From: Chitinispirillia bacterium
GTDB lineage: Bacteria; Fibrobacterota; Chitinivibrionia; Chitinivibrionales; Chitinispirillaceae
NCBI GenBank assembly: GCA_009784115.1
Contig: WRCH01000004.1
Span: 1 to 55,110 of the forward strand
Direction of reading: 5' to 3'
DNA length: 55,110 nt
Below, piece by piece: positions 4,387-55,087 of the stretch. Numbering within the stretch: position 1 is the stretch's first letter; every line of letters starts with the position of its first letter. Below the pieces are notes generated by a model. The model was given only the letters and a program-made list of their open reading frames with translations. It made no database searches and was not told the DNA's origin. A program made the translations under genes and the position numbers.

Positions 4387-4451
4387 ATTGGAATTGCGGT
4401 TTTGGGGTTGAGGGCTGAGGATTAGGGAATAAATGCAACTCTGTCCCCAAA
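4387..4451. repeat. R1 repeat, left copy flanking the KilA-N gene
   Basis: About 65 bp containing a G-rich tract (TTGCGG...GGGGTTGAGG), then TTAGGGAATAAATGCAACT and the core CTCTGTCCCCAAA. A second copy in the same orientation lies at 5576-5641, just behind the KilA-N gene, at roughly 80% identity by eye. The core is the reverse complement of the GGGGACGGAGTTGC motif found at several other places here. The rest of the 502-bp gap at 4205-4706 is AT-rich and I see no gene or RNA in it. Confidence 0.7.
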
Positions 4452-5575: not shown

Positions 5576-5641
5576 ATTGGGGTTGCGGTTGGCGGGGTTG
5601 AGGCTTGGGAGTTAGGGAAAAAACGCAACTCCATCCCCAAA
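5576..5641. repeat. R1 repeat, right copy flanking the KilA-N gene
   Basis: It parallels the 4387-4451 copy: a GGGGTTGCGG-type tract, TTGAGGCTTGGGAGTTAGGG, then ACGCAACTCCATCCCCAAA. It starts 11 bp after the KilA-N stop codon. With the left copy it makes a direct-repeat pair about 1.19 kb apart. Confidence 0.7.
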
Positions 5642-8000: not shown

Positions 8001-8053
8001 CCGCGATGGGTTAAAACCCACCGCTACACTCTTCGCTCCCCTAAAGGGGCGCG
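8001..8053. repeat. R2 repeat between the GH13 and GH5 genes
   Basis: Two small hairpins in series: GATGGGTTAAAACCCACC, then CTCCCCTAAAGGGGCGCG. The reverse complement matches the 50554-50604 copy (CCCCTTTAGGGG ... GGTGGGTTTTAACCC). The layout is that of REP-type elements. It fills the gap between the two glycoside hydrolase genes. Confidence 0.65.
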
Positions 8054-8060
8054 GGAAAAA

Positions 8061-36299: not shown

Positions 36300-36314
36300 G
36301 GGGACGGAGTTGCG
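36300..36314. repeat. R1 core upstream of the Trm112-like gene
   Basis: GGGGACGGAGTTGCG, followed 15 bp later by ATCGTCCCCAAATCATCCCC. It is the same core as at 37388-37401, 53716-53729 and in mnmE. It lies in the shared upstream region of the kinase gene and the Trm112-like gene. Confidence 0.7.
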
Positions 36315-36643: not shown

Positions 36644-37412
36644 ACCCCACGCTCACCTCCGCGAAATTCGGTGAGAACCAGTGGCGGTTTTGAATTCTGA
36701 GCTCATTAGGACCGCTGTAGAAGCCGCCGCCGCGGATCACTCTGTAAAATCCGGCATTGGGGCCTCTTGGATCTTTGTTTTCCGAAAAGGAGTAGAAATC
36801 CTGTTCGTAAAAATCTCCAACCCACTCCCATACATTGCCGGTCATGTCATAAAGCCCGTAGCCATTAGGCGCAAAAGAGCCGGCATTGTGCAGAGATGAG
36901 AGTGCGCAGCGGCTTTTGTCCGGCGGACTATTACCCCATGAATACCGCGCTGACTTTGCTCCCCCCAAAGCGGCATACTCCCACTGAGCTTCTGAAGGAA
37001 GCCTCATCCCAACGTTTCTGCAGTAGTCGCGCGCTTGAAGCCATGTAACGCATACTACGGGAAAATTCGGTCCTCGGAACTGACTTGGGACAGTGACGTT
37101 TATAAACTGTGTGCCTGTCCACTGTAAACATCTGCCGTCGTCATAGTGAGCAGGCGTACATCTGCCCGCGTCAACGCATCTTTTATACTGCGCTTCCGTG
37201 ACGGTTTTTGCCATCATGCCAAATGGGGATATTTCAATCTCTCTTACAGGTCTTTCATCGGCGCTGCCGTCGTTGCTGCCGCGGGCAAATGTACCGCCGG
37301 GGATGCTTACGGTATTTGCGCCTGTTTGGGCGAAAATCTGAATATCAGCGAATATTATTATCATTATCATCAATACGATGGTAAACCGGGGACGGAGTTG
37401 CTTTTTTTGCAT
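36627..37412 (-). CDS. Secreted SUMF1-fold (FGE-sulfatase-like) protein
   Basis: A 261-residue exported protein. The signal region is MQKKQLRPRFTIVLMIMIII, followed by FADIQIFAQ. The SUMF1 fold is clear: VSIPGGTFARGSNDG, KTVTEAQYKRCVDAGRCTPA, WLQARDYCRNVGMRLPSEAQ, YDMTGNVWEWVGDF, RVIRGGGFYSG and VGFRCVR. The copper-binding Cys pair of true formylglycine-generating enzyme is absent, so a structural or ligand-binding role is likelier. The first ~10 residues are encoded by R1 sequence at 37388-37401. An ATG 13 codons later is possible but would lack a basic N-terminus. Confidence 0.82.
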   Translation of the reverse strand: MQKKQLRPRFTIVLMIMIIIFADIQIFAQTGANTVSIPGGTFARGSNDGSADERPVREIEISPFGMMAKTVTEAQYKRCVDAGRCTPAHYDDGRCLQWTGTQFINVTVPSQFRGPNFPVVCVTWLQARDYCRNVGMRLPSEAQWEYAALGGAKSARYSWGNSPPDKSRCALSSLHNAGSFAPNGYGLYDMTGNVWEWVGDFYEQDFYSFSENKDPRGPNAGFYRVIRGGGFYSGPNELRIQNRHWFSPNFAEVSVGFRCVR

Positions 37413-37506
37413 AGTTGATTTCTGTTAGCTTCCGGCATTTTGGGACGGTTGCTTTTTTGCGCAGTTGATTTAAACAAATTAGTGCAATTAACGCAACTCC
37501 GTCCCC
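37388..37506. repeat. R1 cluster: inverted pair of cores
   Basis: GGGGACGGAGTTGC at 37388-37401 and its reverse complement GCAACTCCGTCCCC at 37493-37506, with a half-copy GGGACGGTTGC near 37442-37452 between them. The left core lies inside the start of the SUMF1-fold gene. Confidence 0.75.
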
Positions 37507-50465: not shown

Positions 50466-50604
50466 CAGTCCCCCGGGGCTGAAACCCCGGGTTACAATCT
50501 TAATGTCCCTGCGGGACATGGGAAAAACGTAATCCACACAACCCTATCTACTTGCCCCTTTAGGGGCTAAAGATTGCAGCGGTGGGTTTTAACCCGCCGC
50601 GATG
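50466..50604. repeat. Two R2 repeats between rsmG and parA
   Basis: The left unit is CCCCCGGGGCTGAAACCCCG with TTACAATCTTAATG and a GTCCCTGCGGGAC hairpin. The right unit (50554-50604) is GCCCCTTTAGGGGC, AAAGATTGCAG and GGTGGGTTTTAACCC. Each has two short hairpins joined by AGATTG or its complement. The family also occurs at 8001-8053 and 55034-55087. Confidence 0.75.
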
Positions 50605-51298: not shown

Positions 51299-53263
51299 TT
51301 ATAAATTATTCCGCTTTAACAAATACATTGCTAAAACAGAAATATCCGCAGGGGTTACTCCCCCAATCCTTGACGCTTTGCCAAGCGTGTCGGGATCTAT
51401 TTTTTTCAACTTTTCACGCGATTCGAGGCCAAGACCCTCAACCTCGTTATAATCAAAATTTGCAGGGATGTACGTATTTTCAAACCTGCGCAATTTTTCT
51501 ATCTCGTTTTGCTGCTTTCTTACGAATCCTTCGTATTTTATGTCGGATTCGACTCCCAATATCAGATGCCGGTTTATCTCCTGGACATCTTCGAATCGTG
51601 GATGATCATCACAATTTTGGCGATGATCATCTTTACAATTCAGATGATTACTCCCGCAAGACGGGCGACCGCAAGGGATCGCCCCTGCGAGATTGTATTG
51701 CGGATGATTACAAACCGCCATCACGTGATGAAATTTCACCTCCGGACGTTTCAATAAATCACCGGCTGACTCGCTCTTGGTTATACTTGCGCCCGTTGCT
51801 TCGTTAAACGCGTTGGGGGTAATTTTTACACTGTATAACCAATCTATAACCTCTTTTTTCCGATCCCAAAACCTGCGGCGCTCGTTGTACTGATCATCCG
51901 ATACCGTCCCAAGACTATGCGCAATCGGCATCAATCTCTCGTCACAGTTATCCTGCCTGAGCAGTAACCGATACTCCGCCCTCGAGGTGAACATCCTGTA
52001 CGGCTCGTCTGTCCCCTTTGTGACAAGATCATCAATAAGTACACCGATATACGAACTGTCCCGGCCCAAAACAACCGGCTCATCCCCTAAAATATTTTGA
52101 ACCGCGTTGATCCCGGCGATAAGACCCTGACAGGCCGCCTCCTCATAGCCGGAGGTTCCGTTTATCTGACCCGCGAAAAACAGGTTGCGCACAATTTTTG
52201 ATTCAAGGGTAGACTTAAGCTGCAGCGGCTGGAAATAATCGTACTCAATTCCATATCCCGGACGCGTAATTTTGGCAGCTTCCAACCCCTCTATACTTTT
52301 AACCAAACTCTCCTGAACATCGTAAGGAAGAGAGGTCGAAAAACCATTGATATAAATCTCTTTATGAGAGAGAGTCTCTCTTTCTAAAAATAATGTATGG
52401 CCACCCCGTTCTCCAAATCTCACGATCTTATCCTCTATCGACGGACAGTAACGGGGGTACGCTCCGGTCGCTTTTCCGCTGTACAAAAACGTCTTATCTT
52501 TATTATCGACAACGAGTTTGTGGGTGAGTGTATTTGTTTTAGCCGTAAAGCAAGTCATCTTGTTGACGAGCTTTTCCTTAGTGAAAAACGAAAACGGCCA
52601 AGGGTCGTCATCGCCATGCTGGGGGGTCAGTTTCGAATAATCAACACTCTGCGCGTCTATCCTTGGCGGCGTTCCTGTAGTGAGCCGCCCCGAAGAGATC
52701 CCAAACTTGCCGATGCACTCCGTCAACCCCAAAGATGCAGGCTCCCCCGCCCGTCCTCCGGCAAACGTGTTCAGCCCGATATGAATCGTTCCGTTTAAGA
52801 AAGTTCCGGCGGCCAAAATGACCGCTTTTGCAGCGATTATTTCACCATTATCCAAGGTAACGGTACGGATTCTTTCTCCAGAGACACTTAATTTCGTGAC
52901 CATCGCCTGTAAAATCATAATGTTAGGGTTGTTTTCGATTGACTGACGGGCAAGCGTTTTGTAGTGATCTTTATCCGCCTGAGCGCGCAAACCCCACACC
53001 GCACTCCCCTTGCTACTGTTGAGGACGCGAAAGTGGATACCGCTGCGGTCGATAAGCGACGCCATGAGTCCCCCAAGCGCCCCGATCTCCCGAACAATAT
53101 TCCCCTTAGCCACCCCGCCGATCGCCGGATTGCAAGGCATCATCCCTATAAAATCAATGTGGCTCGTCACCATCAAAACGGAGACGTTTCGTTTAGCCGC
53201 GATATTTGCGGCCTCGATAGCGGCGTGTCCGCCGCCGATTACTATGAGGTCGAAAGTGGTCAT
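51299..53263 (-). CDS. mnmG: tRNA modification enzyme MnmG (GidA)
   Basis: With MnmE, MnmG makes the carboxymethylaminomethyl group on U34 of some tRNAs. FAD binding is seen at LIVIGGGHAAIEAANIA, then GGVAKGNIVREIGALGG, GTFLNGTIHIGLN (catalytic Cys is replaced or nearby), YPRYCPSIEDKIVRF, and the C-terminal VESDIKYEGFVRKQQNEIEK. 654 residues are about 30 more than normal. The excess is at about residues 510-555 in the helical C-terminal domain, where HHVMAVCNHPQYNLAG and a Cys/His/Asp-rich run (SNHLNCKDDHRQNCDDHPRF) replace a normal ~24-residue stretch. That DNA has hairpin repeats of its own (51595-51735). Confidence 0.93.
   Translation of the reverse strand: MTTFDLIVIGGGHAAIEAANIAAKRNVSVLMVTSHIDFIGMMPCNPAIGGVAKGNIVREIGALGGLMASLIDRSGIHFRVLNSSKGSAVWGLRAQADKDHYKTLARQSIENNPNIMILQAMVTKLSVSGERIRTVTLDNGEIIAAKAVILAAGTFLNGTIHIGLNTFAGGRAGEPASLGLTECIGKFGISSGRLTTGTPPRIDAQSVDYSKLTPQHGDDDPWPFSFFTKEKLVNKMTCFTAKTNTLTHKLVVDNKDKTFLYSGKATGAYPRYCPSIEDKIVRFGERGGHTLFLERETLSHKEIYINGFSTSLPYDVQESLVKSIEGLEAAKITRPGYGIEYDYFQPLQLKSTLESKIVRNLFFAGQINGTSGYEEAACQGLIAGINAVQNILGDEPVVLGRDSSYIGVLIDDLVTKGTDEPYRMFTSRAEYRLLLRQDNCDERLMPIAHSLGTVSDDQYNERRRFWDRKKEVIDWLYSVKITPNAFNEATGASITKSESAGDLLKRPEVKFHHVMAVCNHPQYNLAGAIPCGRPSCGSNHLNCKDDHRQNCDDHPRFEDVQEINRHLILGVESDIKYEGFVRKQQNEIEKLRRFENTYIPANFDYNEVEGLGLESREKLKKIDPDTLGKASRIGGVTPADISVLAMYLLKRNNL
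51595..51735. repeat. Hairpin element (R4) inserted in frame in mnmG
   Basis: Contains GGGCGACCGCAAGGGATCGC, which pairs with itself, and three GATGATCATC-type palindromes or variants. It lies exactly over the non-conserved ~45 residues of MnmG and keeps the frame open. The GGGCGA...TCGCCC hairpin type is shared by interspersed repeats in many bacteria. Confidence 0.55.
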
Positions 53264-53330: not shown

Positions 53331-54914
53331 CTACTTCCCAATACAAAACTTGTCAAATATATTATTCATAACCTCATCATTTGTGACATGCCCCGAAAAC
53401 TCCGACAGGAGATTCAGCGCGTTTCTCAGGTATTGAGCGGCGATCTCTTCCCTTTCGATATTATCAATCGTTTGCTTTAGTTCACGGAGAGCAGAACTGA
53501 TCACGCCGCGATGACGATCGTTTACGATTATTTCCGGGGGGGCTATCTGCCCCGTTATCTCTCGGATATTGAGGGCTGTATCAGCGAATAATTTTTCGAT
53601 ATTGATTTTTTCTTTGATGCTGATTTCGATGTGTTTTAGGTTGTGGGCGGCGCAGAACCCTCGGGCGTTGCCCGGGGTTAAGTGATGGCGCCCCTTTGGG
53701 GTGCGGAATAAATGCAACTCCGTCCCCAATTTATCAATTTTGTTGATCACCACCAACGTCTTTTCCGCGTTTTCTAAAATCTCTCTCTCCTCTTGATGAC
53801 CCATAACCTCATCCGCTGATGTCACCCACAGAATAAAATGCGCCTCTTTTACCGCAGATAATGTCCGCTCAATTCCCTTTTGCTCGATGTCGTCTTGGGT
53901 TTCTCTTATCCCGGCGCAGTCAAACAGTTTAACCGTTATCCCGTCGAAACTGACTTTTTCAGAGATTACGTCGCGGGTGGTTCCCGCGCGGTCGTGGACT
54001 ATTGAGCGGTCAAATCCCAATATCTCATTAAAAAGGCTAGACTTGCCAGCGTTCGGCGGACCGGCGAGAGCCAAAATTATCCCCTCATCAAACCTCTTTA
54101 TCAACTCACTTCGGCGCAGCTCTTCCTCAAATTCCCCGGCGATTTTTTCTATATCGGTTTTGGTATTGACCTGAGAATTCGCCACTGCATCCTCTTCACC
54201 GAACTCTATCCGGCTCTCAATGTCCGACAGCAGATCAATTATTTTTGATTTGTAGTTTTCAATTTTGTTCCGCTGATTTCCCTGATAAGCGATGAGCGCG
54301 CTTTCATGATGTTTCTCGGTTTGGCTGTCAATGAGGCTTGCGATGCTCTCCGCCCTGAGAAGATCTATCTTGCCGTTAAGCAGCGCGCGTCTCGAAAACT
54401 CTCCCCGGCCCGCGGGCTGCGTCCCTGCGCGAAACAGACGGTCTAAGATTTTCGCGGTGATTATAGTCCCCCCGTGGCAGAGGATCTCCACCATATTTTC
54501 GCCGGTGAAGGATTTAGGGGAGCTGTATTTTATGGCGGTTACTTCGTCGATGATTTGCGTAGGGCAAATCCCCGGGCGATGCCCGGGGTTAAATGATGGC
54601 ACCCCTTCAGGGTGCGGAATAAAAGCAACTCCGTCCCCAAATTCCGATTCAGTATCGGGGACGGAGTTGCTTTTATTCCGTATCGACTTGTGAAATAAAG
54701 TCAACTCCGTCCCCAATTTAGTCCCAACGGGGTTATTATCAACAACCGTATAAATCCCAATCTTACGATTCTCTTCCTTTTGAAATTTCTCTTTTTCGCT
54801 GATCACCGACGCAAAAATCTCATGGGCGTCGTCCCCTGTCATACGGATAACGGCTAACGCCCCGCGTCCCGGCGGGGTGGAGAGGGCGGCGATTGTGTTT
54901 GTGGAGATGTTCAT
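53331..54914 (-). CDS. mnmE: tRNA modification GTPase MnmE, with repeat insertions
   Basis: MnmE is a GTPase partner of MnmG. The core is intact: N-terminal folate-binding domain (TIAALSTPPGRGALAVIRMT, SPKSFTGENMVEILCHGG), G1 GPPNAGKSS (about 285-293), G2 AGTTRD, G3 DCAG, G4 NKID (391-394), and the C-terminal DKFCIGK with its Cys. The total is 527 residues against ~455 in relatives. The excess is in two blocks, at about residues 64-119 in the N-terminal domain and about 396-425 just after G4. Both are encoded by R1/R2 repeat DNA. Whether the loops are tolerated in the folded protein or removed is unknown. It is the first gene of the mnmE-bactofilin cluster. Confidence 0.94.
   Translation of the reverse strand: MNISTNTIAALSTPPGRGALAVIRMTGDDAHEIFASVISEKEKFQKEENRKIGIYTVVDNNPVGTKLGTELTLFHKSIRNKSNSVPDTESEFGDGVAFIPHPEGVPSFNPGHRPGICPTQIIDEVTAIKYSSPKSFTGENMVEILCHGGTIITAKILDRLFRAGTQPAGRGEFSRRALLNGKIDLLRAESIASLIDSQTEKHHESALIAYQGNQRNKIENYKSKIIDLLSDIESRIEFGEEDAVANSQVNTKTDIEKIAGEFEEELRRSELIKRFDEGIILALAGPPNAGKSSLFNEILGFDRSIVHDRAGTTRDVISEKVSFDGITVKLFDCAGIRETQDDIEQKGIERTLSAVKEAHFILWVTSADEVMGHQEEREILENAEKTLVVINKIDKLGTELHLFRTPKGRHHLTPGNARGFCAAHNLKHIEISIKEKINIEKLFADTALNIREITGQIAPPEIIVNDRHRGVISSALRELKQTIDNIEREEIAAQYLRNALNLLSEFSGHVTNDEVMNNIFDKFCIGK
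53643..53735. repeat. R1/R2 composite inserted after G4 of mnmE
   Basis: Read on the coding strand: GGGGACGGAGTTGCATTTAT, a hairpin ACCCCAAAGGGGC, then ACCCCGGGCAACGCCCGAGG. The frame gives LGTELHLFRTPKGRHHLTPG. About 85% identical by eye to part of the insertion at 54558-54722, but read in another frame there. Confidence 0.85.
54558..54722. repeat. R1/R2 composite inserted in the N-terminal domain of mnmE
   Basis: Holds three R1 cores. In coding order: one read LGTEL, one inverted and read NKSNSVPD, one read GDGVAFIP. Then the two hairpins seen in the 53643-53735 copy, read PEGVPSFNPGHRPGICPTQ. All three forward frames or orientations remain open. Confidence 0.85.
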
Positions 54915-54941: not shown

Positions 54942-55033
54942 TTCGGGGTTATGGTGTTGTGTGTGTATCATCCCCCCCGGGTTGACACCAATGCAGTCAA
55001 CTTAAGGATTTTTCTACATGTTTCTCCGTTTCC

Positions 55034-55087
55034 AGCGCCCCTTTAGGGGAGCTTAGATTGTAACCCAGGGCTTCAGCCCTGGGGTTG
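55034..55087. repeat. R2 repeat at the right edge
   Basis: CGCCCCTTTAGGGGAGC, then TTAGATTGTAACCCAGGGC and TTCAGCCCTGGGGTTGCG. Matches the left unit at 50466-50520 in reverse and shares the first hairpin with 8001-8053. The sequence from 54942 to here has no gene visible. Confidence 0.75.

Follow-up and report, generated by a model that had tools for sequence, protein, structure and literature searches.

In-frame insertion of transposase-linked palindromic repeats into the GTPase MnmE of a Chitinispirillales bacterium

A conserved GTPase gene that contains two near-identical stretches of DNA read in different frames raises the question of where this DNA came from and how the protein accommodates it. 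This situation is found in mnmE of an uncultured Chitinispirillia bacterium (assembly GCA_009784115.1), within the 55,110 nucleotides of contig WRCH01000004.1 that are referred to here as the window. The genome comprises 2.87 Mb in 205 contigs, of which the window is contig C4; the host belongs to the Chitinispirillales, phylum Fibrobacterota, and these bins presumably derive from termite gut. The analysis described below shows that the extra blocks of this MnmE are a true, recent, multiple insertion of dispersed repeats into a conserved GTPase, in which the mechanism is ordinary and the place uncommon.

Only one copy of mnmE was found. Its product matched NCBIfam NF003661 (E 1.5e-104) and, above cut-off, TIGR00450, and its nearest solved structures are MnmE structures. 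As had been noted from the sequence, the essential GTPase frame is kept: all columns invariant across 22 MnmE proteins are intact, including the GTPase motifs and the C-terminal FCIGK. In an alignment with 26 MnmE proteins from the same family and order, two blocks (residues ~61-119 and ~395-424) had no counterpart in the related genomes G020 and G018. Block A lies between IYTVVDN and IIDEVTAIK, block B after the G4 motif NKID. The alignment bore out the original prediction that MnmE is over-long because of these blocks, but the net excess over the 470-amino acid MnmE of G020, a family-level relative, is ~57 amino acids and not ~70. The suggested location in loops of the N-terminal domain and after G4 agrees with an AlphaFold2 model, in which the predicted local distance difference test (pLDDT) score was below 50 only at residues 63-116 (block A), 401-412 (block B) and 306-312, the latter corresponding by position to switch I. 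The low-confidence stretch of block A sits between strands 52-59 and 120-130, and block B is the stretch following the G4-bearing strand; both blocks are modelled as low-confidence loops. Predicted peptides across the blocks include KLGTELHLFR and FGDGVAFIPHPEGVPSFNPGHRPG.

Both blocks are encoded by repeats that are dispersed in the genome. R1 (GGGGACGGAGTTGC) was found in 24 exact copies and in 42 copies with at most one mismatch, the reversed control giving 0 at one mismatch, and its core AACTCCGTCCCC in 30 exact copies (reversed control 0). R1 commonly occurs in inverted pairs, mostly of 58-120 bp and with GGGG outermost (13 pairs listed, three of which represent a single array in nested form). 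The second repeat, R2 (CCGCACCCCAAAGGGGTGCCATCACTAACCCCGGGCACCGCCCGGGG), forms a double hairpin of its own and is mostly intergenic; coding and intergenic calls are based on ~404 kb of stretches around the repeats. In mnmE the ~77-bp units at 53656-53732 and 54567-54643 are 88% identical, and these two copies are the only full-length R1-R2 composites genome-wide, beside ~50 places with R1 only or R2 only. The assumption that R1 and R2 form one repeat was rejected, since they are separate everywhere except in mnmE; they are two separate families, joined in the mnmE composite. The arms 54615-54638 and 54657-54680 are perfect inverted repeats of 24 bp (single-strand fold z = -8.1). Compared with the 42 copies of R1 in this genome, 36 were found in G008 and one in G001 of the same genus (G001 control 1). 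The virtual absence of R1 from G001 shows that the mnmE insertions are young. In G008, R1-like motifs also occur in regular arrays with ~44-bp and ~21-bp spacing (C14:92966-93242 and C41:260-436), representing a tandem amplification of the repeat.

The near-identical units are, as originally proposed, read in different frames. Within mnmE, R1 yields GTEL twice (LGTEL in the copies at 54701 and 53714), GDGV once (GDGVA, 54625) and, inverted, NSVP once (NSVPD, 54657), so that the two additional cores proposed in block A, LGTEL and inverted NSVPD, are both present. In a second conserved protein (C38:432-1403), R1 is read ATPSP twice (NATPSP) within a 27-amino acid insert, a stretch that is unmatched by homologues in ten related genomes and whose flanks are contiguous in G001. 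This protein had no Pfam match, and its conservation was judged from relatives alone. Thus, four of the six frames of R1 are used, three in mnmE and the fourth in the C38 protein, and there is no single conserved encoded peptide or frame. The repeat had also been described as open in several frames and on both strands. It is read in this way, but it is not unusually open: composites A and B are open in three and two of six frames, respectively, and their dinucleotide shuffles in 3.3 and 2.9 on average; a stop-codon deficit was therefore rejected as a property of the repeat. Because shuffled elements are about as open, multi-frame use of R1 needs no special property. Where R1 lies at the beginning of a frame (in C11, C13, C16, C55 and C67), translation may in fact start further downstream, and these copies were therefore left out of the coding count. 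One such frame, L150:5677-6993 (C11:15676-16992), has four R1 copies in its first 65 residues, and its likely true start is a lipoprotein signal peptide downstream of them.

R1 is linked to a transposase gene. R1 pairs stand on either side of the Y1_Tnp gene at C143:273-1328 (Pfam PF01797, over cut-off), which is of the IS200-like HUH type. In seven of the 31 genomes searched, R1-like motifs were detected at eight places no more than 1 kb from a homologous transposase gene. No homologous transposase was found in G001, where R1 was not above control. TIRYT transposases are described by Di Nocera et al. 2013 (PMC3733652) as flanked by terminal inverted repeats (TIRs) with the motif GGGGWSAS. The R1 end GGGGACGG is one base off this motif, the variant GGGGACAG fits it exactly, and no GTAG tag is seen. 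Doublets of repetitive extragenic palindromes (REPs), called REPINs, are inverted pairs of a short repeat linked to genes for REP-associated tyrosine transposases (RAYTs; Bertels and Rainey 2011, PMC3116915). Since R1 flanks a Y1 transposase gene and nearly matches GGGGWSAS, the most fitting description of it is a TIR/REPIN-type repeat belonging to a TIRYT-like transposase. At L169:1-270 an apparent secA C-terminus (RRNDPCPCGSGNQF) directly precedes the transposase gene with its R1 pair and continues into that pair.

Very probably, R1 is a non-autonomous REP/TIR (often a REPIN) of a Y1 HUH transposase, and the blocks are parasitic repeats tolerated in loops of MnmE. R1 would be the end repeat of a single-strand transposase of the RAYT/TIRYT type encoded elsewhere in the genome, presumably mobilised by the C143-type enzyme, and R2 would be a second double-hairpin repeat, mainly intergenic. 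Insertion into mnmE probably took place three times, with site A receiving both an R1 pair and a composite and site B a composite. The inserts would persist because the loops are exposed, the frame is kept and the used frame contains no stop; the translated peptides would most likely form disordered, near-neutral loops. Gene-breaking copies would be purged, leaving most of the remaining copies intergenic. Several observations weigh against this explanation. The R1-R2 composite is confined to mnmE; the C143 protein scored 40.9 on the NCBIfam RAYT model, whose cut-off is 80; and the assembly is a metagenomic bin, 89% complete with 5.6% contamination. Moreover, the site-B insert of G001 and the inserts of G010 gave no convincing matches as repeats of their own genomes and are probably old or of other origin, which indicates that these loops also lengthen by other means.

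Confinement of the composite to mnmE means that one copy may derive from the other by recombination and not by transposition. A single transposition would then have been followed by intragenic recombination or template switching, the second block being a copied patch. The 88% identity of the copies and their same orientation relative to the gene fit this scheme, but the copies differ in reading frame, each has substitutions of its own, site A has an extra R1 pair, and copies elsewhere show that R1 and R2 spread independently; we regard it as somewhat doubtful, though a possibility to be taken seriously. Alternatively, the peptides could be selected loops altering MnmE oligomerisation, MnmG binding or GTPase regulation. 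Inserts in the N-domain and the G4 region of G000, G001, G010, G015 and G029, and an insert in the partner protein MnmG, speak for such a role, which is nevertheless improbable since G020 and G018 do without the blocks and tolerance of exposed loops suffices. It is very unlikely that repeat-rich sequence was misjoined during assembly or binning: the bin is fragmented and some other copies lie at contig ends, but the 527-amino acid frame is kept with intact MnmE on either side, mnmE is single, relatives represented by other assemblies have inserts at the same sites, and the C38 gene shows the same event. Finally, several insertions in one gene might suggest a decaying pseudogene with random insertions, a view that can practically be dismissed as mnmE has no stop and retains every family-invariant residue.

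Insertion of repeats was also looked at in relatives. Site A of the G015 mnmE contains a GTAG REP (TGTAGGGGCGACCGCCCCCGGTCGCCCGCC), to which the G015 genome has ~60 matches, many as opposite pairs. The MnmE N-domain of G029, from another family of the same order, contains a GTAG-type REPIN (GTAGGGGCAGGGTTTGCCTGCCC...GGGCGGGCAAACCCCGCCCCTAC; ~60 matches in G029) located ~20 residues upstream of site A. The MnmE N-domain was thus entered by a different repeat family in each of three lineages. The examined regions of G029 contain 75 repeat copies, of which 48 fall within frames (23 in all) of 140 amino acids or more. Some of these cases are certain: the HA2_N domain of an HrpA-type helicase is interrupted by a REPIN, another copy is within a glycosyltransferase domain, and the inserts in truA and hrpA are missing from G038, of the same genus, and from other relatives. 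Most frames across the repeat in G015 look spurious. The G029 genes with in-frame REPINs encode an ABC transporter, an MMPL protein, TruA, HrpA, a radical SAM protein, an ABC-F protein and a glycosyltransferase. At least 12 proteins of G029 share a C-terminal domain of ~110 amino acids (LGNVVF...WNLTNQSGRFVANGTYLIIVEA) that had no NCBIfam match; a loop of this domain is coded by the REPIN (VGAGFARPENRTNGDLGGQTPPLQ) or by a shorter REP.

Insertion of repeats looks like an ongoing, seldom-noticed route of protein lengthening. We suggest tentatively, as a proposal somewhat short of probable, that transposase-mobilised REP/TIR elements are in Chitinispirillales a standing source of new protein loops, amounting to a genome-scale remodelling outside Rickettsia that resembles that by Rickettsia palindromic elements (RPEs); the proposal includes repeated hits of the MnmE N-domain by unrelated families and an in-frame position in proteins for most G029 REPINs. 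This order-wide pattern is more interesting than the mnmE case itself, and the availability of close genomes with and without each insertion (G029/G038, G000/G001) makes the question of neutral versus selected inserts testable. To our knowledge, no transposase has been assigned to the palindromic insertions of Rickettsia. Palindromic insertions in frame, puzzling ever since Rickettsia, are connected by the present finding with repeats for which an HUH transposase can be identified.

The features are listed in Table 1. The neighbours of mnmE are mnmG, rsmG and a parA-like gene. Relative to its homologues, MnmG (51299-53263, minus strand) has a ~40-amino acid insert around 51600-51720, which contains a decayed GTAG-type REP (GCAGGGGCGATCCCTTGCGGTCGCCC) at 51662-51688 with one close copy elsewhere within the 404 kb. 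A further hairpin repeat (CGCCCCTTTAGGGGCG with CCCAGGGCTTCAGCCCTGGG), apparently intergenic and R2-like in style, is present in the window at 8002-8058, 50471-50601 and 55029-55084.

Table 1. Coordinates of mnmE, its inserts and repeat copies in the window, and loci of repeat-containing proteins in G029
Feature	Position	Strand	Basis or remark
mnmE (trmE), tRNA uridine-5-carboxymethylaminomethyl(34) synthesis GTPase	53331..54914	minus	527 amino acids, open frame
Insert A, ~57 amino acids, N-terminal domain beta-hairpin tip	54558..54722	minus	alignment; R1 pair and R1-R2 composite
R1 inverted pair, REPIN-like, read LGTEL...NSVPD	54654..54720	.	58-bp pair, GGGG outermost; fold
R1 core (GGGGACGGAGTTGA) in insert A	54701..54714	minus	R1 search
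R1 core, inverted, in insert A	54657..54670	plus	R1 search
R1-R2 composite copy A, read GDGVAFIPHPEGVPSFNPGHRPGICP	54562..54643	minus	sequence comparison, genome-wide search
R1 core in composite A	54625..54638	minus	R1 search
R2 double hairpin, copy A	54569..54617	minus	genome-wide search, fold
Insert B after NKID, R1-R2 composite copy B, read KLGTELHLFRTPKGRHHLTPGNARGFC	53643..53735	minus	net gain ~16 amino acids vs G020
R1 core in insert B	53714..53727	minus	R1 search
R1 inverted pair	37388..37506	.	at start of, or upstream of, 261-amino acid frame
Single R1 copy	36300..36313	plus	near start of 428-amino acid frame
Single R1 copy, variant GGGGATGG	5625..5638	minus	no frame of at least 60 amino acids across R1
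Single R1 copy, variant GGGGACAG	4435..4448	minus	fits published TIR motif GGGGWSAS (PMC3733652)
G029 in-frame REPIN loci	L281, L283, L288, L289, L293, L294, L295, L298		
G029 C-terminal domain loci	L276, L277, L278, L280, L282, L284, L285, L291, L296		

In-frame palindromic insertions are known from RPEs and from REPs of the GTAG/CGTC type, and the present case is therefore a variant. Di Nocera et al. 2013 (PMC3733652) describe intragenic in-frame GTAG/CGTC REPs outside Rickettsia in several phyla, where they occur as singles, dimers or groups in conserved genes and encode ~20-82 amino acids; examples are O. terrae uvrA, a gene with two insertions, and Xanthomonas recB, in which two species have an insertion at nearly the same position. 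The mnmE repeats resemble these in being short, palindromic, tagged at one end, located in conserved genes and doubly inserted, and differ in the GGGG tag of R1, the composite, the host gene and the phylum, although the supplementary gene list of that paper may include mnmE. A literature search for mnmE with palindromic inserts found no paper. The novelty claimed in the original prediction is narrowed by the earlier intragenic REPs; what is new is the intragenic position of a transposase-end repeat tagged with GGGG and of an R1-R2 composite, the phylum Fibrobacterota (Chitinispirillales) and the recurrence at one gene. Like the TIRs of TIRYT transposases, R1 is GGGG-tagged, flanks Y1 transposase genes and is dispersed as dimers or clusters; in contrast to R1, those TIRs are not described inside genes in the main text of PMC3733652. 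With REPINs R1 shares the inverted doublets tied to a transposase gene, but REPINs are overwhelmingly extragenic (in SBW25, only 14 of 1,067 of the commonest 16-mers overlap genes; PMC3116915), whereas R1 copies lie inside mnmE. RPEs, the outstanding case according to a 2024 review (PMC10969869), are ~150 bp long and each has a conserved encoded peptide. The R1/R2 elements are like them in their in-frame insertion into unrelated conserved genes, in compatibility with the fold and in the presence of several elements per genome, and unlike them in their size of 14-80 bp, in the use of four frames, in having a candidate transposase and in a host that belongs to the Chitinispirillales and not the Rickettsiales. 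The proposed RPE behaviour in another phylum thus holds as to in-frame insertion, while the single repeat family gives way to a REP/TIR-type R1 and a separate R2; set against the descriptions of RPEs, R1 and R2 are best explained as RPE-like in behaviour without being RPEs.
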